In this document: piece after piece, positions 7,450 through 24,160 of the stretch
Layout of the letters: each line of letters starts with the position of its first letter
How positions within the stretch are numbered: the first letter of the stretch is position 1
Origin: Bacillota bacterium
GTDB lineage: Bacteria > Bacillota_I > Bacilli_A > Izemoplasmatales > Hujiaoplasmataceae
Assembly (NCBI GenBank): GCA_018816905.1
Contig: JAHIVB010000010.1
Location: 1 to 64,000 of the forward strand
Reading direction: 5' to 3'
DNA length: 64,000 bases
Notes under the pieces: generated by a model
Database searches by the model: none
What the model saw: only the letters and a program-made list of their open reading frames with translations
Told to the model about the DNA's origin: nothing
Position numbers and translations under genes: made by a program

Positions 7450-10400
7450 TTAACTGTTAATGAATGCAATCGCATCAATTGCGCCTTGTTTTGTTAAGAA
7501 CAGTGCTGGATTGCTTTCTTCGTAATCGGTGTTGTCGATGGTGTAGAACGGTCCTCCAGGGAAGTTTGCCGCATTCTTAGCCGCTACTGCGGTTTCAACG
7601 TCGCTTGTAATCATGTTTCTTACAATCATCGAAGATAGAACGGTGTCTTGTTCTGCAGGAGTCAATGCTGCAATCGCTGCTAAGTCGAAGTCGACACTTG
7701 AAATGCTAGAGCCACCAACGGTGTTCGCTGCCTTAATGAAGGCTTTGATTTCTGCTACGGTTGTTATGTCAGTCATACTGAATACGTCTTCTACTGCCAA
7801 ATCAGGAATGAATGTATTGATGTTTGCATTTCCTTTCAGCATGTTGTCAACGGTGACTTGCATAGAACCGCTTGCGAGTAAGATATCGAGTTGAGCGTCT
7901 GAAAGTCCAGTCACAACGGAAGCATCGACTGCACCACTGAAGTCTGATACGCCAAGAGTTTCAAGCGAGGTGAGCAATGCCTTCAGTTCGACTTTCTCGA
8001 TTTGTGCTTGAGTACCTGCACCAACATTCAGAGTTTCTCTGAAGAAGTTCGGAACAATCAACGAACCACTGCCAGCGGCAGCCGAATCGTCTAGTGCTCC
8101 ACTTAATAAGGTATCGGATACGGTTGCCTGCATTGAGTAAGACGCAAGCAAGATGTCATAATCCGCTGCAAATACATTGGCAGGATTAATGGAAATTGCA
8201 CTGAAGTCGGTTAAGCCAAGGAGTTCTAGAGAAGTTAAGATGGCTTTAATTTCGACTAATTCGATGTATGTTACATCACTCATAACGATTCTGATCGTGT
8301 AATCAGCTGCGTAATTGGTATTTGGAATGATTAAGTTACCACCGGTATCGTTGAGTAATTTATCGGATAATGTTGCCTGAATCGAACTTGATAGCAACAA
8401 GGTATTTGGATCGTCGAAGAATTTAGATGAATCAATCGAAGCTCCAAACGTATCAAGATCGGTGTATCCCATCGCAAGGAAGGCATCAATTAAAGCTTTG
8501 ATTTCAGTTCTAACGATGAAATCGGTTGAACTGACTGTTTTTTGAACGCGGTTGATTTCTGCGACGCCTGCTTGTGTATATAGCGGTACGATTAATACTG
8601 CATCGTCTAAATCAAGCATGGTCTTTGAAATCGTTGCGTGCATGGAAGCACTTGTTAATACTGTATCTTGGTCGGCTGATAACGCTAGTGCGCTAATGTC
8701 AAAGCTTCCGTCAAATGCGGTGATGTCGGTGATGCCAAAGACTTCTAAAGCATTGATGATGGCTTTGATTTCGTCTTTGTAAATGAAGTGTGTCAATGAG
8801 ACTGTAGCTTCAATAACGTCTCCTTCATCATCGGTATGAGGAATCAATAATACACTTGAACCAAGATCATCTAGTTGTTTTGAAATCGTTGCGTGCATCG
8901 ATGCACTGGCAAGCAATGTATCTTGATTTGTACCATTGAATAGATTGGTCAGTGATACGGTACCTGTAAATGCGGTGATATCATTAATACCCAAAACTTC
9001 TAATGCATTGATAATCGCTTTGATTTCATCTTTGTATATGAAGTGCGTTAAGGATACCGTCGCCTGGATAGGATTACTTAATACATCCGTTGAAGGTACT
9101 AACAATACGGAAGAACCTAAATCATCAAGTTGTTTTGTAATTGTCGCATGCATCGAAGCCGACGACAACAACGTATCTTGATTTGGTTCGTTGAATAGAT
9201 TTAGAAGCGAGACTGTACCTGTAAATGCAGTAATGTCTGTGATGCCTAATACTTCAAGTGCATTGATGATGGCCTTAATCTCGTCTTTGTAGATAAAATG
9301 AGTCAGTGAGACAGTACCTTGAATCGAGACGTTCAAAACATCGGTATCCGGAATCAATAGAACACTTGAACCCAAATCATCGAGTTGTTTTGTAATCGTC
9401 GCATGCATCGAAGCGGAAGATAATAATATGTTTTGATTCGTATCGTCAAACAAATTGGCTAAGGATACGGTTCCTGTGAAAGTTGTAATATCATCGATTC
9501 CTAGAATTTCCAAAGAATCAATAATGGATTTAATCTCAGATTTGAAGATATAGTGCGTACCCGACACCGTTGCTTGGATGGAAATGCCATCCACATCAGT
9601 TAGTGGTACAAGCAAGACGGATGAGCCTAAATCATCGAGTTGTTTTGTGATTGTCGCATGCATCGAAGCACTTGCGAGCAGAATATTCTGATTAGTATCT
9701 CCATAGATTAAGGTTAGATCAACACTACCGTCAAAGGAGTTGATATCTGTAATGTTCAGAAGTTCAAGAGCCTCGAACATGGCGTCAATTTCTGTTTTAA
9801 CCACATACTCTGTCTCAAAACCGACTGGCCCAAAGGTGACTCTAATGTTTTGAGCAGCTTCGTCCTGAAGCGGAACACGTAACACTGCATCACCGAGATC
9901 TAATAGTTGTTTCGAAATCGTCGCATGCATCGAGGCACTGGCTAGAAGAATGTCTCTGTTTCCTTGAACGTAAAAACTGGTTAAGTCGATGTTTCCATCG
10001 AAGGTAGAAATATCCGTGATTCCAAGAATTTCAAGAGATTCGAACATAGCGTCAATTTCTGTCTTGATGACGTATTCTGTCTCGAATCCTACTTCTCCTG
10101 CTGATACTCTAATTGAAGTTACATTATCAGAAGCAATATAAGGAACGCTTAATACGGCTGGTCCTAAATCAAGCAACTGTTTCGTAATTGTCGCATGCAT
10201 GGAAGCACTTGCTAACAGAATGTCTCTATTTGCTTGAATATAAAAGTCGGTTAAGTCGATATTTCCATCAAAAGTGGTAATGTCTGTGATTCCCAAGATT
10301 TCAAGGGATTCAAACATGGCGTCAATTTCTGTTTTGATTACAAATTCCGTTTCATTTCCAACCGGACCGACAAGGACTCTAATATCCGTCGTATTGTCTG

Positions 10401-13400
10401 AAGCCCGATAAGGAACGGTTAATGTAGCAGCTCCTAGGTCAAACAATTGTTTTGATATCGTTGCGTGCATTGAAGCACTTCCTAATAACACGTCACGATT
10501 GGCTTGAATGTAGAAGCTTGTCAGATCGATATCGCCTGAGAAGGTCGTTACATCGGTAACGCCTAGAATTTCAAGAGATTCAAAGATCGCAGAAATCTCA
10601 GCTTTTGAAACATATTCTGTTTCATCACCGATGGGTCCTGTCATCAATCGAACATCCACTAATGAAGAATCGGTATAAGGAACCGTTAATGTTGCAGCTC
10701 CCAAATCGAGAAGTTGCTTGGAAATGGTCGCTTGCATGATGGAAGAGGACAGTAGAACATTACGGTTTGTTTCATCATAAAAACTGGTTAAATCAACCGA
10801 ACCATCGAAGGTTTCAACGTCGGTGATGCCAAGAAGATCCATGGCATGAATCATAGCCACAAGTTCGGATGCAAGGACGTAGTCCGTTGCTTCTGTTAAC
10901 AATCCGACAGTGATTCTTATTTCGGTTATGTCGTTGTCCGCAAAGAATGGAACGTTAATCGTATCAGATGCGTCAAGGTCCAAAACTTGTTTTGAAACGG
11001 TCGCTTGGATGACTGAAGAAGATAATACGGTTTCAGCATTCGTTCCGTCGGCGAGCGTACTAAGATCAACCGTACCCGAGAAGGTCTCTAAGTCTGTGAG
11101 CCCTAAAATATCAAGCGCATCGAAAATCGATATGAGTTCAGATTTAATTAAATAAGTGGTCTCAAATCCCAAAGGACCTGTAACTACTTGTATCAAGGTG
11201 ACTCCATCTTCTTGGTAGGTAGGAACTTCTAGAGTTCCATCGGTGCCTAAATCAAAGATTTGTTTTGAGACCGTTGCTTGGATGACACTGGAGAGTAACA
11301 AAGTATCCGCATTGTCTCCTTCTGTAATGACAGAGAGGTCGACACTTCCGTCAAAGGTTTCGACATCGGTGATACCTAAGATGTTCAAAGCGTCGATCAT
11401 TGCGGAAAGTTCGGATTTGATAATATATTCCGTATCGTTTGGAGCACTACCAACAAGAACTCTGATTTGAGTCGTATTATCTTGAGCCATATAAGGAACT
11501 GTTAAAGTACCTGAAGTAGCGAGATCAAAAATTTGATCTGATACGGTGGCTTGGATTGTTGAAGAAGAAAGTAAGATGTCACTGTTTCCGGGAATCGCTA
11601 GTAAGCTTAAATCAACACTACCACTAAAGGTCGTTACGTCTGTAATGCCTAAGACGTTGAGTCCATCGATGATGGCGCTGATTTCACTTTTAATCATATA
11701 TTCGGTTTCAAAACCAACAGGACCGACAGTGACTCGGATTTCAGTCACACCGTTTTGAGCAAGATATGGAACATTGAGGGTTCCGTCGGTTGCTAAATCA
11801 AAAATTTGATCTGAAACGGTCGCTTGAATGATGGCAGAAGTTAAGAGAATATCACTATTTCCTTCCACAGCCAACAGACTTAAATCGATGTTTCCGTCAA
11901 AGGTTGTAACGTCTGTGATTCCTAATACGTCCAATGCATCAAATACAGCGGAGATTTCAGCTTTTGTAATATAATCGGTTTCAAAACCGACTGGACCTAC
12001 GCTGACTCTAACTTCAGTGACTCCGTCTTCTTCAACATAGGGAATATTTAAGAATCCATCGGATGATAAATCAAAAACTTGTGTGGATACAGTGGCATGA
12101 ATAATCGAAGAGGAAAGTAAGATGTCAAGATTGCCTTCCACGCTTAACACACTTAAATCGACATTTCCATCAAAAGTGGTAACGTCATCGATTCCTAAAA
12201 CATCAAGAGCATCAAAAACCGCTCCAATCTCTGCTTTGGTAATATATTCGGTTTCAAAACCGACTGGACCTACGGTCTTTCTGATTTCCGTCGTTCCATC
12301 GGAAGCCACAAACGGTACTTCAATCAATCCGTCTCCTGTCAAATCTAACACTTGGGTGGAAACCGTCGCATGAAGAATCGAAGAGGAAAGTAAGATGTCA
12401 AGATTGCCTTCCACGCTCAACAAACCTAAATCGACGTTTCCATCAAAAGTGGTAACGTCTGTAATGCCCAAGACATCAAGTGCATCGAATACCGCACTGA
12501 TTTCGTCTTTAATGATATATTCGGTAACGAATCCAACTGGACCAACTGTTTTTCTAATTTCAGTCGTACCATCAGAAGCGACATAAGGAACTTCAATCAA
12601 TCCGTCTCCTGTCAAATCCAAAACTTGAGTGGAAACCGTCGCATGAAGGATAGCGGATGATAAAAGCGTTTGAAGATTGTCTCCTTCTGTCAAAGTAGAC
12701 AAGTCGACATTTCCATCAAAAGTTGAAATGTCCGATATGTTCAATACTGCAAGCGCATCAAATGCGGCTTGAAGTTCTGCTTTCGAAATGTACTCTGTTT
12801 CAAATCCAGGATCTCCTACGGTGATTCGAATTTCATTTTCGTCTTCGTCAACATAAGGAATTGTGACTAAATCTCCAGCTAAACTATAAAGTTGGTCAGA
12901 GATTGTCGCATGTAAAATCGCTGAAGCAAGGAGCGTTTCAGAATTATCCGTAATCAATGAAAGATCCAAGGAATCTATATTATTGAAGTCTTGGATGTCT
13001 AAAGAAAGAATCGCTTGAAGAACAGCCTCAAGTTCATCTCTGGATATATATTCAATGCTTCCAACACTACTGCGAATGACATTCTCATCTTGATCGACAT
13101 AAGGAACGGTCAAAATCGCTTCGTCGCCTTCAGCGAAACCTAAGATGACATCTGAAAGTGTTGCATGCAAGATGTCTGAAGCAAATAGTTTCTCCGCTTT
13201 GGCTGGATCTAAAGTCGTGGGTTCGTCTTCGAGTCCCAAAGCTTGTAGTATCGATGGATCTATTTCTATATTCTCAAAATCAGAAATTCCAAGAACGGTA
13301 ACGGCTTGAATGATTTTTGATATTTCTGCTTTTGATATTACGTCTTGAGCGACTGTTTTAACAAAGATTTCTGTAATCGCAGAGTCAGGAATGGTAAGTG

Positions 13401-15492
13401 TATCGCCTGCCATGGTAATAATTAAATCACCAATTGTAGCTGACAATATATCGGAGCCAACCAAAGTATCGATGTCTTCTGAGGACAGATTAAAGGCTTT
13501 GGAAATGTCAAATCCAAATCCATCTTCCTCACAAGCGATGTCTCCTTCGTCACAAAGAAGACTGGATGTCACCAAGGTGAGCGATGCGGATAGTGCTTGA
13601 AGTTCTGTTTTCAGTAAATAGCCGTCTTCATCGAAAACGGAATCGGGAATGATCAAAGGAAGTCCCAAATCCTGATTCAAGAGAAAATCAGAGATGGTAG
13701 CGACCAATATTCTGGATTCAAATAGCGAATTAATCGCTTCCTCCGTCAATCCTGAAAGCGAGCTGATTGAAAGATTATTAAAATCAATCGTGGAGGCTAC
13801 TCCACCAAGAGCATTGACTGCAAGTAAGATGTTTCTAAGTTCACCGTTTGAGATGATATTTCCGTCATCGTCAAGTTCATCCAACCATTGAATGCCATCG
13901 GGGATGATAATCATATTGAGTTCTTCTATATCCAAAGCACCCTCGAAAATATTGATTAGCGCCTGTGTTATTAATTTTGATTCCAGTATCACCGTAAAAT
14001 CAAGGGTCGAAAGTGCAGAAATGATTGCGAAAGGATCTTCATCGTTGATGATGTCAAAAGATACTCCGGTATCCAAAACCGAACCAATGATTTCTCCAAA
14101 AGCCGCCAATTCGTCTTCCCAAACAATATCTGCAGGAATCGTGACTATGGCACGTATCTCCTCACTGGCCATTTCTAATACCGGCTCGATTGCAACATAG
14201 GCCGCAAGCGTGATAAGCTGAGAATCTCCTAAGGCATCAAATACGTCTCTGACGTCATCTCCATCCAATGTCAATGTTTGAAGATCAATGTTTCCGGAAA
14301 GCATTCCGGCTGCATTCGCTATATCGAAAACTGTCCCAGCGATTTCACCTAACTGAGCGAGTTCGGTTGACCAATCAATGGCATACAATTCCTCAGTAGG
14401 AAGATCAATGTCGACTTCATATAAGCTAGCCCCTACTTCTACTGCAATAGGAATCAAACTGGTAAGAAGCGCAGAATTGGAGATGGTATCGAACACGAGT
14501 CGAATATCATCTCCGGAAATATCCGTCAATTCATTTGTCTCAAAATAAGAAGAATCCAACAATTGAACTGCAACAGTCGAAATGACTTGAAGTTCATGTC
14601 GAATCGCAATTTGAGTGTCGTGGTAATCAAATGATAGAACTTCATCAAAGAGATATAAATCTAGTTGCATCTCTTCAGAAGTAACAGGGTCGGTGACAGT
14701 CACTTGTGCAGCTGTACTGACAATGATATTTGCCTTATATGCCGTAACCATGTCATTCATCATCGCAACCGCTTCTTCAAACTCCGCTGGAATTTGAACA
14801 GGGCTTTCGGCTAAAACGATGGAACGACTTGCTTGATAAATATCTTCTCTGGGAAATTCCATTTCCACAGTATCAGGGTCATTTTCAGGAGCGAGAGCGA
14901 CAAAGCTTTCAGAAATGGAGATGAGTCCGCCAAAGCTGATTAAAGATACAAATACAGTAACGACACCATTAAGTAAACCAAATAGTGCTCCCATGCCTCT
15001 GTTTTTAGATGCATACTTGTCATTTTTCTTTTTAGAAGGAAAGAAAATAACTCGAATTAAAAAGAATAAGATGCGGTAGATCAGGTTGAAGACTGTAAAA
15101 TAAAGAATCAACCATACAATCTTCACTACAAACATGGCGAGTCCCGTGACGAAAGCTATTAGTTCAACATTCGTCAGTGCGGCTGCATAATCCGCAGGAA
15201 TGAAGAGTTCAAGTGCCAAAGGCAATGCGCCAGACAGCGAGGTTGCGGTAGAAAGTTCAGGTGCAAGCATCGCAAATCCTTGTCCGATATAGGGTGAATT
15301 AACCGTCCATAAAAAATTAACGGCCAAGTCGAGCGTCAAGAAAAAGATGGCGTACAAACCGAGTACGACAAGGAATGAGAATAACGATTTCTTAAGACCT
15401 CGCAAAAATCCAAACAGCATTCCTAGGCCTAACATCCCAAAAAAGGCTATATTGAAATAAAGAGCAAAATCCATGTTATCAAGTTGTGGCAT
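7450..15492 (-). CDS. Giant CvpA-like membrane protein with ~24 tandem repeats
   Basis: 2680 aa, by far the longest gene here. AAGGAGG sits just upstream of the ATG at 15492. Residues about 8-200 form a CvpA-like domain of four hydrophobic segments with basic loops RGLKK and PSKKKNDKYASKNRG. If both loops are cytoplasmic, the 2450-residue remainder is extracellular (inference). A diverged region (about 215-590) leads into about 24 repeats of 85-91 residues. The unit reads roughly: S-S-I-HATVSKQLLDL, then VPY, a gap, TEYIxKxEIxA, FDALDVLGITD, TFDGNVDL and ILLSS. The array is rich in Asp, Glu, Ser and Thr and nearly free of Cys. There is no LPxTG signal. CvpA itself is about 160-180 aa, so this is a strongly extended form. 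Role unknown; adhesion or surface coat is possible. Confidence 0.8.
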   Translation of the reverse strand: MPQLDNMDFALYFNIAFFGMLGLGMLFGFLRGLKKSLFSFLVVLGLYAIFFLTLDLAVNFLWTVNSPYIGQGFAMLAPELSTATSLSGALPLALELFIPADYAAALTNVELIAFVTGLAMFVVKIVWLILYFTVFNLIYRILFFLIRVIFFPSKKKNDKYASKNRGMGALFGLLNGVVTVFVSLISFGGLISISESFVALAPENDPDTVEMEFPREDIYQASRSIVLAESPVQIPAEFEEAVAMMNDMVTAYKANIIVSTAAQVTVTDPVTSEEMQLDLYLFDEVLSFDYHDTQIAIRHELQVISTVAVQLLDSSYFETNELTDISGDDIRLVFDTISNSALLTSLIPIAVEVGASLYEVDIDLPTEELYAIDWSTELAQLGEIAGTVFDIANAAGMLSGNIDLQTLTLDGDDVRDVFDALGDSQLITLAAYVAIEPVLEMASEEIRAIVTIPADIVWEDELAAFGEIIGSVLDTGVSFDIINDEDPFAIISALSTLDFTVILESKLITQALINIFEGALDIEELNMIIIPDGIQWLDELDDDGNIISNGELRNILLAVNALGGVASTIDFNNLSISSLSGLTEEAINSLFESRILVATISDFLLNQDLGLPLIIPDSVFDEDGYLLKTELQALSASLTLVTSSLLCDEGDIACEEDGFGFDISKAFNLSSEDIDTLVGSDILSATIGDLIITMAGDTLTIPDSAITEIFVKTVAQDVISKAEISKIIQAVTVLGISDFENIEIDPSILQALGLEDEPTTLDPAKAEKLFASDILHATLSDVILGFAEGDEAILTVPYVDQDENVIRSSVGSIEYISRDELEAVLQAILSLDIQDFNNIDSLDLSLITDNSETLLASAILHATISDQLYSLAGDLVTIPYVDEDENEIRITVGDPGFETEYISKAELQAAFDALAVLNISDISTFDGNVDLSTLTEGDNLQTLLSSAILHATVSTQVLDLTGDGLIEVPYVASDGTTEIRKTVGPVGFVTEYIIKDEISAVFDALDVLGITDVTTFDGNVDLGLLSVEGNLDILLSSSILHATVSTQVLDLTGDGLIEVPFVASDGTTEIRKTVGPVGFETEYITKAEIGAVFDALDVLGIDDVTTFDGNVDLSVLSVEGNLDILLSSSIIHATVSTQVFDLSSDGFLNIPYVEEDGVTEVRVSVGPVGFETDYITKAEISAVFDALDVLGITDVTTFDGNIDLSLLAVEGNSDILLTSAIIQATVSDQIFDLATDGTLNVPYLAQNGVTEIRVTVGPVGFETEYMIKSEISAIIDGLNVLGITDVTTFSGSVDLSLLAIPGNSDILLSSSTIQATVSDQIFDLATSGTLTVPYMAQDNTTQIRVLVGSAPNDTEYIIKSELSAMIDALNILGITDVETFDGSVDLSVITEGDNADTLLLSSVIQATVSKQIFDLGTDGTLEVPTYQEDGVTLIQVVTGPLGFETTYLIKSELISIFDALDILGLTDLETFSGTVDLSTLADGTNAETVLSSSVIQATVSKQVLDLDASDTINVPFFADNDITEIRITVGLLTEATDYVLASELVAMIHAMDLLGITDVETFDGSVDLTSFYDETNRNVLLSSSIMQATISKQLLDLGAATLTVPYTDSSLVDVRLMTGPIGDETEYVSKAEISAIFESLEILGVTDVTTFSGDIDLTSFYIQANRDVLLGSASMHATISKQLFDLGAATLTVPYRASDNTTDIRVLVGPVGNETEFVIKTEIDAMFESLEILGITDITTFDGNIDLTDFYIQANRDILLASASMHATITKQLLDLGPAVLSVPYIASDNVTSIRVSAGEVGFETEYVIKTEIDAMFESLEILGITDISTFDGNIDLTSFYVQGNRDILLASASMHATISKQLLDLGDAVLRVPLQDEAAQNIRVTFGPVGFETEYVVKTEIDAMFEALELLNITDINSFDGSVDLTLIYGDTNQNILLASASMHATITKQLDDLGSSVLLVPLTDVDGISIQATVSGTHYIFKSEIKSIIDSLEILGIDDITTFTGTVSLANLFDDTNQNILLSSASMHATITKQLDDLGSSVLLIPDTDVLNVSIQGTVSLTHFIYKDEIKAIINALEVLGITDITAFTGTVSLLNLFNEPNQDTLLSSASMHATITKQLDDLGSSVLLVPSTDVLSNPIQATVSLTHFIYKDEIKAIINALEVLGINDITAFTGTVSLTNLFNGTNQDTLLASASMHATISKQLDDLGSSVLLIPHTDDEGDVIEATVSLTHFIYKDEIKAIINALEVFGITDITAFDGSFDISALALSADQDTVLTSASMHATISKTMLDLDDAVLIVPLYTQAGVAEINRVQKTVSSTDFIVRTEIKALIDAFLAMGYTDLDTFGASIDSSKFFDDPNTLLLSSSIQATLSDKLLNDTGGNLIIPNTNYAADYTIRIVMSDVTYIELVEIKAILTSLELLGLTDFSAISINPANVFAADYDILLASYSMQATVSDTLLSGALDDSAAAGSGSLIVPNFFRETLNVGAGTQAQIEKVELKALLTSLETLGVSDFSGAVDASVVTGLSDAQLDILLASGSMQVTVDNMLKGNANINTFIPDLAVEDVFSMTDITTVAEIKAFIKAANTVGGSSISSVDFDLAAIAALTPAEQDTVLSSMIVRNMITSDVETAVAAKNAANFPGGPFYTIDNTDYEESNPALFLTKQGAIDAIAFINS
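7600..13720 (-). repeat. Coding tandem repeat array, about 24 units of 255-273 bp
   Basis: The minus-strand translation repeats an (H/Q)AT(V/I)(S/T) start motif about every 85-91 codons, from about residue 590 to 2625. Neighbouring units between about 11.9 and 12.7 kb are nearly identical in DNA: the same block begins at 12122 and again at 12395, exactly 273 bases apart. The outer units are more diverged. This pattern suggests growth of the array by recombination or slippage in its middle. Confidence 0.85.
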
Positions 15493-16552: not shown

Positions 16553-16584
16553 AGGAGCCAATGAATCTTGGCTCCTTTTTTTTT
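16553..16584. terminator. Terminator between convergent protease and GH2 genes
   Basis: AGGAGCCA (16553-16560) pairs with TGGCTCCT (16569-16576), followed by nine T on plus. On minus the same hairpin is followed by a shorter T-rich stretch, so it can serve both converging genes. Confidence 0.8.
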
Positions 16585-18973
16585 ATAATATATTGATTTT
16601 AAAGGAAATATCATTCAAGCCGGGAGAAGTGATTTTGATGGTCGCTTTTCCTTTTTTGATTGTTTTGACAAAGAAAGCGATGGAACCTCCAGATAAAGCA
16701 ATATCTTTTGGCCCGATGACTTCCATTTCTTTCGACGAATCAATGTGAATGACGTTATCCGCATACTCTTGAATGTTGTTGTATTCGTCTACTAAACGAA
16801 CGAGGATGCGAGTGACGTCGTAGGTTTCTTCATGATTCAGAGTCGTAGATAGCGTCTCTGATTGAAGTGTAAACTTCCTTGATTGGCCTTTTGTGACAGT
16901 GATAGCTAGTTGATCGTCAATATACCCTTCAAAACGATAAGCACTTCTTTCTTGGCCCCAGTGACCTAGGTATTTTCCATATAATCTTAAAGCTTCACTC
17001 ATATTGAATTTATGGAATGCGATTAAGTTGACGACTTTCATTTTGTCTTTGAAAGGAAGATCGATTCCATGCTTGTTATAAGAAAGGAGTACTTTCTTGA
17101 TTCTCTTTGCGACGTTTTTTCGGTATGGTTCGTTTTGTTCTATCATCGAACCGATGAAATCATCTATCAAAACCGGGGGATGAGGAATCAGAGGAAAATG
17201 TTGCCACTCCGAATAATATTTTCCGAGGAGTTCTTCATTGTGATAAACCAAGATATAATCACAATTGGTCATAATCACGACTTCTTCAATGACACTTCTT
17301 TCGTTGTCTCCGGGATTCATGTTCGAGAGCACTTGCAGTACGGGTTTTCCGTCTTTTTGAGAAGCATAGGCGTAAGCTGCGTATTTCGGAATTCGGAACA
17401 TGTCGCAAACGCCGTGATAACACACTCTATCCCCTGAGCCAAAGTCTTTATGGGTGTTGTAATCGGCGAAACACCAGCCGATTGCACCACTGATGCCATC
17501 GTATTTATAGACACTTTCCATCACGTTCATATGACGGATTGCTTGTTCGATTTGAATGGTTCCATCATCGGTTCTTTTGGTTGGAAACATATGTCCATTA
17601 TGTTCAGTCACTAAATATGGCACAAAAGGACGCATGACTTTTCTTGGGTTTTGTAGTCCAGGGTTTTTTCCAGTATGTGAAAAATCATTATAGGTATAAA
17701 CATCTTCAAGAAACTCGGAGTTTGGAAAATTACGAACCCCACCAATTTGTCTTGAATCGTCAAGTTCGAATGCTTTTTCACTTAATATCGTGTAAAAATC
17801 GTGGTCATCGGGAGATTCGTTGATTCTCGTACCCCATAAAACGATGGATGGATGATTTTTATGTGATTGAATCATCGAAGTCAGGTTTTGAAGGGACAAT
17901 TCTTTGAAGTGTTCATTTCCGATATATTGCCACCCGGGTATTTCTTCAAATACTAAAAGGCCGATTTCATCGCATCGTGAAATGAAATGATCGCTTTGCA
18001 TGTAATGAGACGTTCTGACAATATTGCAGCCTAAATCGAATTTAAGCATGTCCGCATCCATTTCTTGGATTCTTTTTGGCATCGCATAGCCTACATAGGG
18101 ATAACTCTGGTGTCGATTCAACCCAATCAGTTTGACTCTACGATTGTTTATCGAGAAACCTTCGAACGAAAATTTTACATCTCGATAACCAAAACGAACG
18201 GATAAACGATCCACTTCTTTTCCGTTGATCGATAGAATCGATTCCAATAGATACAGTTTTGGGTCGTCGATGTCCCAACGATGGACCTCTTTATGCTCTT
18301 CATCATGTTGATACTTATCGGCAAGCTTTCCTGTATATAAATGACTATGTTTGATTAAGCCATCGTCGATGACACAAAACTCGAGTTGAAAATCTGAATC
18401 GATGACTTGATTAAAATGAACTTGAATCGATACCATCATTTCGCTCGGAGATAAGCTCAAAGACTCATGTGTCTTAATCGTCAAATCCGATATATGAATC
18501 TGAGGTAATACTTCAATCCATACTTCTCTATAGATTCCACCAAATCCAAGGTAATCAACGACATTTCCAAAAGGAGGAATGTCTTTGATTTCTGTTGAAT
18601 CTACTTTGACAAACAAGATGTTTTCTTCTTCTCTTTTCACAAGATCCGTAATATCGAATGAAAAGGGGGTATAGCCACCTTCGTGAATACCGAGTAATTC
18701 GTGATTCAAATAAACTTCTGCAACATTCATCACAGCTTCAAAGTGGAGAATGACACGCTCTTCTTCAGAAAGACTGGAAATGGTGAATCTTTTTAGATAA
18801 CTGGAGACAGTCTGATAATCAAGTTCGTCAAAATGATGAAGTGGCAAGCACTTCACTGTATGAGGAATATGAACGACTTCTGCTTTTTGTGATAGTTTTT
18901 GGTCTTTAATGAAATGTTCCTTAAATTCGCTTAAAAATTCCCAATCGAAATTCAGATGGACTTTACGACGCAT
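16583..18973 (-). CDS. Glycoside hydrolase family 2, beta-galactosidase-like
   Basis: 796 aa, no signal peptide, so cytoplasmic. Order: N-terminal sugar-binding jelly roll (about 1-170), immunoglobulin-like domain (about 175-275), TIM barrel (about 280-560) and C-terminal beta domains. The barrel has the GH2 features GLNRHQSYPYVG, NIVRTSHY, the acid/base Glu386 in TRINESPD and the putative nucleophile Glu457 in TEHNGH. GH2 includes beta-galactosidases, beta-glucuronidases and beta-mannosidases; the partner GH36 gene suggests galactoside use. Its start overlaps the end of the GH36 gene by 11 bases, so the two are translationally coupled. No sugar transporter is adjacent. Confidence 0.88.
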   Translation of the reverse strand: MRRKVHLNFDWEFLSEFKEHFIKDQKLSQKAEVVHIPHTVKCLPLHHFDELDYQTVSSYLKRFTISSLSEEERVILHFEAVMNVAEVYLNHELLGIHEGGYTPFSFDITDLVKREEENILFVKVDSTEIKDIPPFGNVVDYLGFGGIYREVWIEVLPQIHISDLTIKTHESLSLSPSEMMVSIQVHFNQVIDSDFQLEFCVIDDGLIKHSHLYTGKLADKYQHDEEHKEVHRWDIDDPKLYLLESILSINGKEVDRLSVRFGYRDVKFSFEGFSINNRRVKLIGLNRHQSYPYVGYAMPKRIQEMDADMLKFDLGCNIVRTSHYMQSDHFISRCDEIGLLVFEEIPGWQYIGNEHFKELSLQNLTSMIQSHKNHPSIVLWGTRINESPDDHDFYTILSEKAFELDDSRQIGGVRNFPNSEFLEDVYTYNDFSHTGKNPGLQNPRKVMRPFVPYLVTEHNGHMFPTKRTDDGTIQIEQAIRHMNVMESVYKYDGISGAIGWCFADYNTHKDFGSGDRVCYHGVCDMFRIPKYAAYAYASQKDGKPVLQVLSNMNPGDNERSVIEEVVIMTNCDYILVYHNEELLGKYYSEWQHFPLIPHPPVLIDDFIGSMIEQNEPYRKNVAKRIKKVLLSYNKHGIDLPFKDKMKVVNLIAFHKFNMSEALRLYGKYLGHWGQERSAYRFEGYIDDQLAITVTKGQSRKFTLQSETLSTTLNHEETYDVTRILVRLVDEYNNIQEYADNVIHIDSSKEMEVIGPKDIALSGGSIAFFVKTIKKGKATIKITSPGLNDISFKINIL

Positions 18974-21338
18974 GTTCTACCTCCGCTACTTGTTTCAATA
19001 AATACATCCTAGATCCGTAATCGCCCATCAGGCGTACGGATTCATTATATCCTGTACCAATAAAGTTCTGTAAAAGATTGATTCCATGATTGGCAATGAC
19101 TTGTCCTGAATAGACTAAGTCTATTTCTTCTGCCTTCATCAAATACCTATTTTTCAATAAATGGAAAAGCAACCCATTTGCATTGAGATGGATGGGTAAT
19201 GCGTGTTTAATCAAATGTCCGAATTGATCCAAGTTGAAATATTGTATTCTGTTTTTAACACGATATGGAATGAACTCATCTATTTCTTTGATTTTGAATC
19301 TTTCTAGTTTTGAATTGGGTTCTTCATGGATTGTATAGACGCCCAGCATTGCACTTGTTTTATCTTTTGAAACCACATTCCAGACACATTGGTTTGTTGT
19401 AAAAGGACTGATGATTCTCGATAAGGTCCCGAACTGGAGAAGTGATCGGTTTTCTTTGTAGAAAGCGATTTGTTTTTGGATGACTTTCTTTTCAAAAGGA
19501 GTACATTTTGTCAAATCCAATTCATACCCTAGTAGACCGAAAGCTGCGGTATTAAATCTTGTTTCCAAGGGGACATTTCGAATGGTTTGTTGATTCGGGA
19601 CGGCACTGACGTGCGCTCCCATGGTTGATTGAGGATACACAAGACTCGTCCCATACTGGATTTTCAATCTTGAAATTCCGTCAGTGTTATCTGAAACCCA
19701 AGTCTGAGGCATGTAACAAAGCATTCCTAAATCATATCGATTACCACCGCTGGCACAAGATTCAAACAAGATATTAGGAAATGCTTGAACAAGTCGGCTT
19801 AGAAGTGAATATAGACCTTTCATGTATAAATGCGATAGAGCTCCTTGGTATTCTTCCGGCAAATAAGAAGAATAAATATCCGAAAGATTTCGATTCATGT
19901 CCCATTTTACATAGGTAATGTTTGCACTCGAAAAAAGTGTTGATAGAACTTCATACAAATGGGCAACTACTTCTGGGTTGGATAAATCAAGAATCAATTG
20001 ATTTCTTCCAAGTGAAGGTGTGTATTTGGGATGTTGGATTGCCCAGTCTGGATGCAATCGATAAAGATCGCTATCGATGTTCACCATCTCGGGTTCAACC
20101 CAAATCCCAAATTGCAATCCAATTTGATTGATTTTTTTGGCAAGCCCCTCAATTCCTGATGGTAATTTCTTTTGATTAACAACCCAGTCACCAAGAGAGG
20201 AGAAGTCATCATTTCTTTTCCCAAACCATCCGTCGTCTAGTACAAAAAGCTCTACTCCTAGTTTCTTTGCGATTCTAGCGAGTTGTAATAATTTTCGCTC
20301 ATTAAAATCAAAGAAAGTCGCTTCCCAGTTGTTAACTAGAACCGGCCTTTCTTTGTTTTGCCACTGAAGTGGTATGATGTTTTTTTTTACAAATTCATGA
20401 AAGTTTTGACTCAGTTTTGTTAGTCCCGATGCTGAAAAAGTTAGAGCGACTTCAGGTGTGACGAACCTTTCGTTTTTCTTTAAAGGGTAATGAAAATCAA
20501 AGGATTGAATTCCGAAAAGAACTCGAAGAAGCCGATGAGGAGAAACTTCTAAGGTCGCTTCAAAATTTCCGCTATAGATGAGTGAAAATCCGTAACAAGG
20601 TCCAAATTCTTCACTCGTATTTTTACCTTTTATTGCGATAAAAGGATTATGATCATTACTTGAATTCCCTTTTTTCGAATCTATCTTCAATATTCCGTAT
20701 TCTAATCGATGTTCCGTAATGTTTCTTTCCCGAATCCACGCGCCATCAAGAGATAAAAAGGAATAGTCCAGATGAAGCATATCAAGATTCATGCTTAATC
20801 CTTTTTCGATTGTAATGTCTTGTGAAGAACCATTTCTGATGACGATTCTTCTTGTCAATACATCCACTTCAAGAAACAAGGTGTAATACATGTCAATCTC
20901 AATGTCTTGGATATCGTCTCTGAGCGTAACCATCAAGGTTTCTGTTTCGTCTTGATTGGTTGTTTTCGATTCTGGAAGTTCAGGAAATAGAGGTTTTTCA
21001 GACAAAACTTTGAACTCTTTAAATAAGAAATCGGTTAATCTCGACCCATCAGCTAACCTGAAGTGAAGCATGGGATCACGAAAGTCTCCCTTGCCAAAAG
21101 TAGATAATTCAAGCATGGCAAGATTCAGATTAAAGGTTCTGTCATCTTGGCTATAGAGGACTTGATTTCCTACTTCGATATCGAATTTGGTAATGAGGGA
21201 TTCAGATTTTGTGTTTAGATCAAGTAATTCGCCAAAGTAAAGATGTCCCAGATGTCCTGTAGGCAGGATTTTGATTAGATAGGAGAGGTGTTTTGTTTGT
21301 AAATGAAATGTTTTATCTTCTTCAATGTACTTAATCAA
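18963..21338 (-). CDS. Alpha-galactosidase, glycoside hydrolase family 36
   Basis: 791 aa, cytoplasmic. The start codon is TTG, preceded by AAGGGAG; no nearby ATG gives a better N-terminus. An N-terminal beta-sandwich (about 1-320) is followed by the catalytic barrel with WEATFFDFNE, FVLDDGWFGKR, the nucleophile Asp480 in YVKWDMNR, SCASGG and the acid/base Asp550 in VSDNTDG. The family removes alpha-galactose from melibiose, raffinose and related sugars. First gene of a two-gene unit with the GH2 enzyme. It starts 40 bases after the ABC permease gene and may be transcribed with it, because no strong terminator lies between; a 14-bp palindrome (21371-21384) is all that is there. Confidence 0.92.
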   Translation of the reverse strand: MIKYIEEDKTFHLQTKHLSYLIKILPTGHLGHLYFGELLDLNTKSESLITKFDIEVGNQVLYSQDDRTFNLNLAMLELSTFGKGDFRDPMLHFRLADGSRLTDFLFKEFKVLSEKPLFPELPESKTTNQDETETLMVTLRDDIQDIEIDMYYTLFLEVDVLTRRIVIRNGSSQDITIEKGLSMNLDMLHLDYSFLSLDGAWIRERNITEHRLEYGILKIDSKKGNSSNDHNPFIAIKGKNTSEEFGPCYGFSLIYSGNFEATLEVSPHRLLRVLFGIQSFDFHYPLKKNERFVTPEVALTFSASGLTKLSQNFHEFVKKNIIPLQWQNKERPVLVNNWEATFFDFNERKLLQLARIAKKLGVELFVLDDGWFGKRNDDFSSLGDWVVNQKKLPSGIEGLAKKINQIGLQFGIWVEPEMVNIDSDLYRLHPDWAIQHPKYTPSLGRNQLILDLSNPEVVAHLYEVLSTLFSSANITYVKWDMNRNLSDIYSSYLPEEYQGALSHLYMKGLYSLLSRLVQAFPNILFESCASGGNRYDLGMLCYMPQTWVSDNTDGISRLKIQYGTSLVYPQSTMGAHVSAVPNQQTIRNVPLETRFNTAAFGLLGYELDLTKCTPFEKKVIQKQIAFYKENRSLLQFGTLSRIISPFTTNQCVWNVVSKDKTSAMLGVYTIHEEPNSKLERFKIKEIDEFIPYRVKNRIQYFNLDQFGHLIKHALPIHLNANGLLFHLLKNRYLMKAEEIDLVYSGQVIANHGINLLQNFIGTGYNESVRLMGDYGSRMYLLKQVAEVEHAS

Positions 21339-21378: not shown

Positions 21379-22101
21379 TTATTTGTTTTTAGATGTAACT
21401 AGGTATGATTTAAAAAATGGGAGAATCGCCCAGATGATGAGCACACCTATATAGATTACTTGAAGAAAGACAGATAAAAGTATTAAAGTCAACCCTGAAT
21501 ACATGACTCCTGCCATGACGTTTCCTAGCAGAACTCCAGATAAATAAGCTGGCGAGATAATCATCACATATTGAAAGGATATGGGAATCAATCCATTTTC
21601 ATAGAAAATTGGCGTGATTGAGAAAATGACAATGTAGGCTATATAACTGACGGATAGAATATTGTTGCTTTTAGATATGATTGAAAGTGTCAAACCAATA
21701 ATGATGTGTAGGAAGGTTCCTAATAGGTATGCACCGATAAAGGCGATGTAACTAATATCTAATTTTTGGATAAAGAGGAATACTAGCGTATAGAGTATGA
21801 CTGGAATAAGCTGTATGACCAATGCAGCAAACAATTTAGCCAAAAGAACGACATGACTTTTGCAACAAGTCGATAGCGTTGGCAAGATTGTTCCTTCTTC
21901 TTTTTCGATGTACATTGATATCGAAAAAAGAATGACTGGAAGGACGAATACGCTGACGTAGATGAAATTGCTTGGATTAAAAGTAGGAAACAACGCCATC
22001 GCAAACGTGAAGATGAATACGATTGTAATAAACACATGGAACAATCGATATTCGAAAAATCGTTGCAAGTCATTGATGAAGATTTTTTTAAAATTATTCA
22101 T
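21379..22101 (-). CDS. ABC-2-type transporter permease
   Basis: 240 aa with six predicted membrane helices and little else. A short N-terminal cytoplasmic segment (FKKIFINDLQRFFEYR) precedes helix 1, as in ABC-2 permeases. A central KEEGT motif in the loop after helix 2 is also typical of that family. Its start overlaps the end of the TetR-ABC fusion gene by 8 bases, so the two surely work together as a single exporter or sensor. Substrate unknown. Confidence 0.75.
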   Translation of the reverse strand: MNNFKKIFINDLQRFFEYRLFHVFITIVFIFTFAMALFPTFNPSNFIYVSVFVLPVILFSISMYIEKEEGTILPTLSTCCKSHVVLLAKLFAALVIQLIPVILYTLVFLFIQKLDISYIAFIGAYLLGTFLHIIIGLTLSIISKSNNILSVSYIAYIVIFSITPIFYENGLIPISFQYVMIISPAYLSGVLLGNVMAGVMYSGLTLILLSVFLQVIYIGVLIIWAILPFFKSYLVTSKNK

Positions 22102-23545
22102 TGGAATGTTCTCCTATCTCTATTTTTAGGATTTCGTCATATGATTTATGAACCATATTGATTTCGATTAATTGCTTATCTTTGTATTTTTCTTGAAAAG
22201 GCAGAGTGTTAATCATCGACAGCGGTATAGATTCTGAGTACTCTAAGCCGTTAAGTGTATACCTAATGATTACCTTTTTCGAGTCATATTTCTTTTTTAT
22301 ATCTGAAGAGTACGAAATCTTTTTGATGAATCCTCGATCAATAAAAGCGATTCGATCTGCCAAGTCGAGCAATTGGTCCAGTTTTGAATCTATCAAAACT
22401 ATTGTACTTCCTTTTGCCTTGTACTTCAACAACTTCCTTGAAATTAAGCCCAGATGATAGGGTGAAAGCGAGTATATCATCTGATTTATAATCAGTACTT
22501 TGGGTTTCATCCAAATTGCTTTAGATATCAGTAACAATTGTTTCGAATCATCACTCAAATCTTTGTATAGAATATCTTCCATTCCCTCCAGTCCGATGTC
22601 TTTCAGTTCCTGAGAAAGGTCGATATTAAGATGATGACTTTTATTCATCAGTTCAATGTTTTGAGAAATGGTTTTTTTCAAGTGAAATACAGGCTTATCT
22701 GATGATAATAGAACGTGTGGGACGTTTGGTGGATCTACTGTTTCATCATCTATGTATTGTATTGAACCTTCATATCTTTTCAGTTGACCCGCTAAGAGAC
22801 GTGAAATAGTTGATTTCCCTGAGTCTTCATCTCCGACAAGGGCAAAGATTTCTCCGCTAAATAATTGGAAGGTAGCTTGATGTATCGTATTGGTCGATAA
22901 CTGATAAGTATAGCTCAAATCCTTTATATCAACAATGACTTTTTGTTTCGAGTCTTCAGTCAACTCTTTCGTAGCTAAAGAAGCTGAATTAGTGATAAAA
23001 CGTAAATAATCCTCCATTTTAAAATTGGGACTATCCTTGAAGTCTGAAAAAACTGAATAAAAATGTTGAATGGATTCTTTTAACAAGGAAAGTTGTTTTA
23101 CATTGACTTGATTACTGAAATCAAGTGCCATAAACAGACGTTCTAGGGGTGAAAGAACACACTTTTCTCTTATTTCAGATTGTAATGATTTAGACTCAGA
23201 ATAGATTTTCTTTGAAAATTCAAGAAAACGGGGGTCCATCTGCATGAGTTGGATTAGACTATCAAACAGCATTTTCAGCTGTTGATCAAAGGGAAGTTGT
23301 GACATTAACCCTTCGATTGAATCATTGATATAATTGACTTGTTGAGTAAACATGTCATCAATTAAAGCAAAATACAATTCTTTCTTATCCGAAAACCTAT
23401 AATAGAAGCTGCCTTTATTCGAGTTGCTTCTTTTGATAATTTCATTCAGTGAAGCAAGTTCAAAAGGCCTCTCTGAAAATTCATTTAGAGTGGCATCGAA
23501 CAGCTGATGATTAGATTTCAAATAATACGTCTTATCATTCAACAT
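22094..23545 (-). CDS. TetR regulator fused to a degenerate ABC ATPase
   Basis: 483 aa. Residues about 5-55 are a TetR-type helix-turn-helix (LNEIIKRSNSNKGSFYYRFSD), followed by a helical ligand domain to about 190. From about 203 an ABC ATPase begins. Walker A is intact (GDEDSGKST, 238-246). The signature is weak (LSDDSKQ, 330-336). Walker B reads VLIINQ (350-355), with Asn for the magnesium Asp and Gln for the catalytic Glu. The switch His is Ser387. It should bind ATP but hydrolyse it poorly or not at all (inference). Overlaps the permease gene downstream. A consensus promoter and a tandem operator just upstream suggest self-regulation. I do not recognise this fusion as a described family. 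Confidence 0.85.
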   Translation of the reverse strand: MLNDKTYYLKSNHQLFDATLNEFSERPFELASLNEIIKRSNSNKGSFYYRFSDKKELYFALIDDMFTQQVNYINDSIEGLMSQLPFDQQLKMLFDSLIQLMQMDPRFLEFSKKIYSESKSLQSEIREKCVLSPLERLFMALDFSNQVNVKQLSLLKESIQHFYSVFSDFKDSPNFKMEDYLRFITNSASLATKELTEDSKQKVIVDIKDLSYTYQLSTNTIHQATFQLFSGEIFALVGDEDSGKSTISRLLAGQLKRYEGSIQYIDDETVDPPNVPHVLLSSDKPVFHLKKTISQNIELMNKSHHLNIDLSQELKDIGLEGMEDILYKDLSDDSKQLLLISKAIWMKPKVLIINQMIYSLSPYHLGLISRKLLKYKAKGSTIVLIDSKLDQLLDLADRIAFIDRGFIKKISYSSDIKKKYDSKKVIIRYTLNGLEYSESIPLSMINTLPFQEKYKDKQLIEINMVHKSYDEILKIEIGEHSNE

Positions 23546-23567
23546 AAATCATTCTCCGAAGGTAATT

Positions 23568-23595
23568 AGACTATATGGTTTAGACTATATGGTTT
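23568..23595 (-). promoter_or_regulatory. Tandem 14-bp operator repeats
   Basis: Two exact copies of AGACTATATGGTTT (plus strand) stand head to tail at 23568-23581 and 23582-23595, directly after the -10 of the TetR-ABC promoter. Each contains an imperfect palindrome (ACTATATGGT, 8 of 10 positions symmetrical). The position covers the transcription start, as expected for repression by the encoded TetR domain. Confidence 0.65.
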
Positions 23596-23596
23596 A

Positions 23597-23625
23597 ATTA
23601 TAAATCGAATTTTGAAAATTGTCAA
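23597..23625 (-). promoter_or_regulatory. Consensus promoter of the TetR-ABC operon
   Basis: On minus TTGACA (23620-23625) and TATAAT (23597-23602) are exactly 17 bases apart: a perfect sigma-A consensus. The start of transcription falls in the adjoining tandem repeats, about 45 bases before the start codon. Confidence 0.85.
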
Positions 23626-23645: not shown

Positions 23646-23670
23646 AAAAAAAACGGCTATTTAGCCGTTT
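23646..23670 (-). terminator. Intrinsic terminator of the thyA operon
   Basis: AAACGGCTA (23651-23659) pairs with TAGCCGTTT (23662-23670). It is followed on minus by a run of T and overlaps the stop codon of the YcxB-like gene. Confidence 0.8.
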
Positions 23671-24160
23671 TTTGAACTTTTCTGCTCTTAAAGTGGTCTT
23701 TTAAAAATTGGATTAAAGTATTTTTGTCTTCTTCAGTTTTAAATCCAGTTAGTGACACAAGATACGTCTTTTGATCCTTGCTTTGCATGACGATGAATTG
23801 TTTTGTAACTTTTACTTTTTTGATGAGCTCATATGTGGTCTTTTCACCATAGGACATGATGATTTCATCATCTGTAAACAAGTACTCTTGTACAAAAGGA
23901 TTCGCAACGATAGGGTTATTTTTTATATTCCTTTTCGTTGAGTATATTTGCATAAGATAGATCAAAATAAAATATGCGATTAGTATTCCAATGAGCGTCA
24001 GTGCATAACTCGTTTGATTGAGAATAAACATATACACTGAAAAACCTAATACTATGGCTCCCATAAACGAATATCTTGTTAGTAAAAAGTTTGTGAAGAA
24101 ATATTTGTTGTACTGAATAATAAGAAATTTGTCATACAACGTTCTGTTGTATATTTTCAT
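23657..24160 (-). CDS. YcxB-like membrane protein
   Basis: 167 aa. Two membrane helices (about 30-75) are followed by a soluble C-terminal part with the layout of YcxB-like proteins (VQEYLFTDDEIIMSYGEKTTYELI, then a predicted sheet and an end helix). The function of this family is unknown. Last gene of the thyA-folA-plsC-HAD-PAP2 unit, 11 bases after the PAP2 gene. The assignment rests on topology and a faint sequence resemblance only. Confidence 0.5.
   Translation of the reverse strand: MKIYNRTLYDKFLIIQYNKYFFTNFLLTRYSFMGAIVLGFSVYMFILNQTSYALTLIGILIAYFILIYLMQIYSTKRNIKNNPIVANPFVQEYLFTDDEIIMSYGEKTTYELIKKVKVTKQFIVMQSKDQKTYLVSLTGFKTEEDKNTLIQFLKDHFKSRKVQKTAK

Follow-up and report, generated by a model that had tools for sequence, protein, structure and literature searches.

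The gene at positions 22094-23545 (minus strand) of the 64,000-nt stretch of DNA analysed here (referred to as the window) encodes a protein, FUS, that joins a TetR-type repressor to the remains of an ABC ATPase. Judged from its sequence, FUS is a TetR family member by its helix-turn-helix (HTH) and its operator, and is a descendant of the ABC ATPases, not a functional ABC ATPase. Comparison among related genomes establishes the fusion itself, the death of the catalytic site, the presence of one dedicated operator and the linkage to a permease gene. By its residues the nucleotide-binding domain (NBD) is catalytically dead in every fusion member, and in most of them the P-loop has been lost as well.

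The fusion protein and its locus

FUS is a single uninterrupted open reading frame (ORF) of 483 aa, beginning with an ATG that is preceded by a GGAG Shine-Dalgarno sequence. The HTH occupies residues 16-61, followed by the TetR ligand/dimer domain (approximately residues 62-195), a linker (approximately 194-200) and a pseudo-NBD (approximately 203-477). Two Pfam domains score above the gathering cut-off, TetR_N at residues 16-61 (5.8e-10) and ABC_tran at residues 222-353 (8.5e-13), and an AF2 model (with 25 family members; mean pLDDT 83.5) contains a TetR fold and an NBD fold, with a low-confidence linker at residues 194-200. Among the solved ABC ATPases matched by the predicted structure of the NBD half, the best PDB match is the ABC ATPase 4yer. 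The Walker A motif is present, with K244 in GDEDSGKST (the GxxxxGKS form). The Walker B Asp and the catalytic Glu are both absent, N354 and Q355 standing in their places, and the switch His position is S387. With one ORF and both domains above the cut-off, the fusion with a dead-looking active site that the initial annotation described is real, and its numbering of these residues is exactly right; it did not mention that the signature motif is degraded to LSDDSKQ and that the Q-loop Gln is lost too. A frameshift or the mis-joining of two separate genes, which it had raised as an objection, is ruled out by 22 independent full-length relatives, all of them single ORFs of 429-490 aa.

FUS is followed by PERM (21379..22101, minus strand), the gene of an ABC-2-type permease of 240 aa, whose first 8 nt overlap the end of the FUS gene. 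After a 40-nt gap comes a GH36 alpha-galactosidase gene (18963..21338, minus strand), probably in the same operon; no terminator was found between these two genes in the window. A GH2 glycosidase gene (16583..18973, minus strand) overlaps the GH36 gene and is probably the last of the operon, with a terminator-like hairpin 3′ of it (16553..16576, minus strand). The upstream neighbour of FUS is a gene for a YcxB-like small membrane protein (23657..24160, minus strand), and the two are separated by a terminator-like hairpin (23648-23673) and the FUS promoter. The likely transcription unit is FUS-PERM-GH36-GH2. The locus has no intact NBD gene and only a single permease gene.

The YcxB-like gene is upstream in all 25 fusion loci recovered, and also in genus g7, which has no fusion. 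Beyond it lie PAP2, HAD, acyltransferase, dfrA and thyA genes, in an order shared by most relatives; several loci of the family (for example L066, L075 and L103) have paired ChrA-like chromate-transporter half genes between the acyltransferase and the HAD/PAP2 genes. In genus g11 (L066, L067, L070, L071 and L072) the GH36 and GH2 genes are absent after the permease and the fusion and permease are kept, so the glycosidases are optional members of the module. Four loci (L069, L074, L077 and L082) have an additional gene, of the BadF/BadG type (N-acetylglucosamine kinase-like), between those of the permease and GH36. The window also holds a very large ORF of 2680 aa on the minus strand at 7450-15492.

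Distribution of the fusion

A profile of the TetR part recovered the fusion from 25 of the 34 genomes of the window's GTDB family (f1) and from none of the 56 genomes of two sister families. Three of the 25 are cut by contig ends and 22 are full-length, and in all 22 an ABC-2-type permease gene lies directly 3′ of the fusion, its product 32-53% identical to PERM. Searches of 395 genomes of the class and 392 of the phylum, sets that were drawn evenly and overlap, found no fusion outside the family. Four apparent matches (L014, L016, L125 and L124) were rejected, as each spans one in-frame TAG and represents separate genes. A scan of genome contigs with the window protein matched only unrelated ABC ATPases. 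Genomes of the family are small, at 1.2-2.4 Mb, and that of the window is 1.67 Mb. We know of no named family with a TetR-pseudo-NBD build; the initial annotation had said the same, and titles and abstracts of the open-access literature likewise yielded nothing relevant on TetR-ABC fusions.

Operator and probable autorepression

The FUS promoter, TTGACA-17-TATAAT (23597..23625, minus strand), matches the consensus at 12 of 12 positions, and its −10 box abuts a 30-bp tandem-dyad operator of 37 bits that begins right after it, over the start site of the operon (23567..23596, minus strand; TAAACCATATAGTCTAAACCATATAGTCTA). The operator consists of two overlapping dyads 14 bp apart, and the regions upstream of the fusions have in common two copies of TA-n-AC(C/T)A-nn-T(A/G)GT-n-TA with this spacing. 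The operator is unique in the genome of the window, even when up to 3 mismatches are allowed. Among 90 genomes of the order, it lies directly upstream of the fusion in 22 of the 25 that bear one; the three exceptions all belong to one genus, in which a TAAACTTATAAGTCTA dyad is kept at the same place. Other matches in the 90 genomes are few and all have 3 mismatches, a reversed control pattern is equally frequent, and in genomes without the fusion the matches are at chance level. Action at its own promoter, as the initial annotation had supposed, is therefore strongly supported by the operator, which is the strongest evidence that FUS is dedicated to repressing the operon to which it belongs, irrespective of what has become of its NBD.

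Decay of the ATPase half

The HTH is the best conserved part of the fusion, its NKGSFYYR being essentially invariant across the 25 members. The TetR C-terminal domain and the pseudo-NBD diverge much faster than the HTH and the permease, both of which are strongly conserved, and for the NBD half the rate is 2-3 times higher. Five of the 22 full-length members keep a canonical P-loop (the window protein, L073, L077, L081 and L089), two have a damaged one (L074 and L078) and 15 have none; the partial member L079 also retains GxxxxGK[ST]. None of the 22 has a P-loop and the catalytic Glu together, the position being Q, D, H, D and D in the five P-loop members, respectively, and D, H, R or others across the relatives. 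In L073, L081 and L089 a His stands one residue past the switch-His column, so that loss of the switch His is ambiguous there. The signature motif is unrecognisable in most members (LSDDS in the window), and Pfam finds ABC_tran in 6 of the 25 and TetR_N in all 25. The initial annotation had proposed aligning homologues to see whether N/Q/S at the Walker B, catalytic Glu and switch His positions is conserved. The alignment of the 22 full-length members rules this out, the exact combination being peculiar to the window protein.

These patterns bear on the mechanism first suggested, ATP binding without turnover, in which FUS would bind but not hydrolyse ATP and nucleotide occupancy would set its DNA binding. 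The GxxxxGK[ST] kept by the window protein, its four full-length P-loop relatives and partial L079 agrees with such a sensor, but the Walker B Asp is Asn in the window protein itself, the P-loop is missing from most members and damaged in two, and the operator and permease are retained regardless of its state. The absent P-loops and the scarcity of ABC_tran matches leave the suggestion unsupported as a general mechanism, and we hold it to be improbable for FUS.

In a tree of TetR plus permease, members without a P-loop from three genera group together in a single clade (support 100/99), and further losses in L082 and L069 are separate, giving at least three branches in total. The NBD halves of P-loop members align end to end with intact NBDs (hhalign 100%, E 4e-45), and the C-terminal halves of P-loop-less members align with those of P-loop members (hhalign 93%, 2.8e-7). 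Between the P-loop-less halves and intact NBDs hhalign gave no alignment, the pseudo-NBD being unrecognisable in 13 members; the P-loop intermediates and synteny point to NBD descent for these halves. An AF2 model of the P-loop-less L068 has a TetR fold (Z 14.3 to TM1030), and the Foldseek and VIA matches listed are to TetR only; these barely probe the C-terminal half, for which no new fold is claimed.

Rapid divergence and P-loop loss on at least three branches would also be seen if the pseudo-NBD were a vestigial passenger and FUS an ordinary TetR autorepressor, sensing a small ligand through its TetR C-terminal pocket. The fusion would have removed a stop codon, and the ATPase would have decayed as the permease gained an ATPase-independent or trans-energised role. 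Such a passenger is hard to reconcile with a domain present in 22 of 22 full-length members at near-constant length (229-290 residues past position 200) and free of stops, despite undetectable similarity, since a useless tail of approximately 700 nt is expected to be lost in genomes of this size. The P-loop-less clade, moreover, has a conserved motif of its own, LP..K.SKI. The pN/pS ratio, below 1 in every close pair (0.21-0.77), also speaks against it, as a weak test since dS is partly saturated. On balance we consider a passenger domain a possible but rather unlikely explanation.

Relatives without the fusion and the origin of FUS

Outside the family the operator was sought, as a degenerate pattern with at most 1 mismatch, in 390 genomes of the class. 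It was found in 4 genomes only (L124 and L141-L143), of one family of another order, and a control pattern gave 0 matches in the same 390 genomes. In these four it fronts an operon without a fusion, in which the NBD is intact, two permeases are encoded and TetR is a gene of its own, the first in L124 and the last in L141-L143. Among the unfused TetR proteins seen, that of L124 is the nearest (97 bits), and a single in-frame stop separates it from its NBD. Since the same operator serves unfused, catalytically intact operons, autorepression at this operator most likely came before the two genes fused and before the ATPase died. Normal Walker B and His residues, which the initial annotation had named as evidence against its reading, are confined to the unfused homologues, and these have the look of the ancestral state. 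The shared operator further suggests that the repressor of an ABC exporter took up the ATPase of that exporter, and that the ATPase died afterwards. FUS may thus have arisen in an ordinary ABC-2 exporter operon under TetR control, when its repressor gene fused with the ATPase gene next to it, an origin that, taken jointly with the mode of action proposed below, has in our estimate about an even chance of being correct. What may be a series of intermediates survives in living genomes: the intact operon, the fusion with a P-loop, the fusion without one, and loci from which the fusion is absent.

The window's own genome also carries an unfused, intact paralogous TetR/NBD/permease operon (L002; G000:C4:101721), whose upstream sequence is different and whose permease has a match to FLQE3 that stays under the Pfam cut-off. 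This operon has a candidate dyad of its own, TGACCATGTGGTCA, just before its TetR gene. A canonical NBD such as this one might pair in trans with FUS as the degenerate half of an active, asymmetric ABC transporter, the repressor being carried on the degenerate half. In a pair of this kind the degenerate NBD must supply the signature motif to its partner's site, and in the fusions that motif is also lost. Moreover, most members have no P-loop, and the second permease of the ancestral-type operon is missing from the FUS locus. Pairs of a degenerate and a canonical NBD are well known among heterodimeric exporters (PMC7756269), and a suitable intact operon is at hand in the same genome, but we judge a trans-energised transporter to be unlikely here.

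In genus g7 (L103, L104 and L105) the gene order is kept, except that the permease gene comes immediately after YcxB, with no fusion or operator and with a plain promoter instead. The permease thus has a role for which the fusion is not required, nor an ATPase gene next to its own, and it works alone or with another ATPase. Loss of the fusion in g7 is deduced from synteny only, as the permease tree fits either loss or earlier branching (AU test with g7 as outgroup, p 0.32, not rejected). The retention of the permease without the whole fusion, and the use of the same operator by an ancestral-type TetR that is not fused, add to the case for a passenger domain.

A proposed mode of action

The reading that we prefer is that the pseudo-NBD couples the repressor to the permease. 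Two FUS dimers would occupy the tandem dyads and shut off FUS-PERM, together with GH36 and GH2 in the window. NBDs dock on the cytoplasmic face of permeases, and the pseudo-NBD, retained as a structural domain, would dock there on the permease, whose amount or conformation (substrate occupancy) would set whether FUS is free for DNA. ATP turnover would play no part, and ATP binding would be at most an optional relic in the P-loop minority. This scheme of two-dimer binding, repression, docking, and relief by the state or amount of the permease seems to us evenly poised between right and wrong. It draws on the HTH as the most conserved part, on the unique operator and the permease gene after every full-length fusion, on a C-terminal half kept in all full-length members with pN/pS below 1, on the confident AF2 prediction of TetR and NBD folds, and on the same operator at unfused intact operons. 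Against coupling to the permease counts the g7 permease, which has neither fusion nor operator; against a role for the pseudo-NBD count its fast evolution and the members in which it is unrecognisable, which also fit a decaying passenger. With more reserve, at somewhat less than an even chance, FUS may represent a new class of membrane-coupled one-component regulator, in which an NBD has been exapted as an ATP-independent docking or sensor module of a TetR repressor, and the pseudo-enzyme drifts freely between a DNA-binding part and a permease that stay fixed.

If coupling of this kind is true, FUS offers a testable case of a motor domain turning into a regulatory domain, with the unfused operon and its operator still readable in relatives. 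For annotation the family is a warning against labelling such genes ABC transporter ATPases; members in which ABC_tran goes undetected resemble a plain TetR with an unknown tail.

Comparison with known systems

The FUS locus has the same parts as ABC-2 exporter operons under TetR control, of the fluoroquinolone-export type (an ATPase and two permeases; compare Pfam FLQE3_permease), and in the unfused relatives L124 and L141-L143 even the operator is identical in kind. It differs from these operons in having TetR and NBD joined in a single polypeptide, in lacking the catalytic site and the second permease, and in being found in one bacterial family only. QacR/TetR-type autorepressors bind a small palindromic operator over the promoter, with tandem dimers on overlapping dyads. 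FUS resembles them in its palindromic operator over the promoter, its overlapping tandem dyads and its recognisable TetR fold, and differs by the extra C-terminal pseudo-NBD of approximately 230-290 residues.

Transporters that report on themselves usually combine an active ATPase with a separate regulator. In the maltose regulon of E. coli the active ATPase MalK acts in trans on the STAND activator MalT, and there too an NBD-type protein connects a transporter and a transcription factor, whereas the NBD of FUS is dead and fused to a repressor. In flux sensing by BceAB-BceRS, the active ATPase BceAB signals through a histidine kinase and a response regulator (PMC6978683, PMC7828314). What the two share is the proposed feedback from an ABC-type membrane protein, whose state would be relayed to the promoter of the operon that encodes it; FUS, in contrast, would be a one-component TetR covalently joined to an ATPase remnant. 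By analogy FUS resembles BceAB-BceRS or MalK-MalT in its proposed logic and is identical to neither; in its case the regulator seems to have taken in the ATPase, which lost its chemistry and kept its place.
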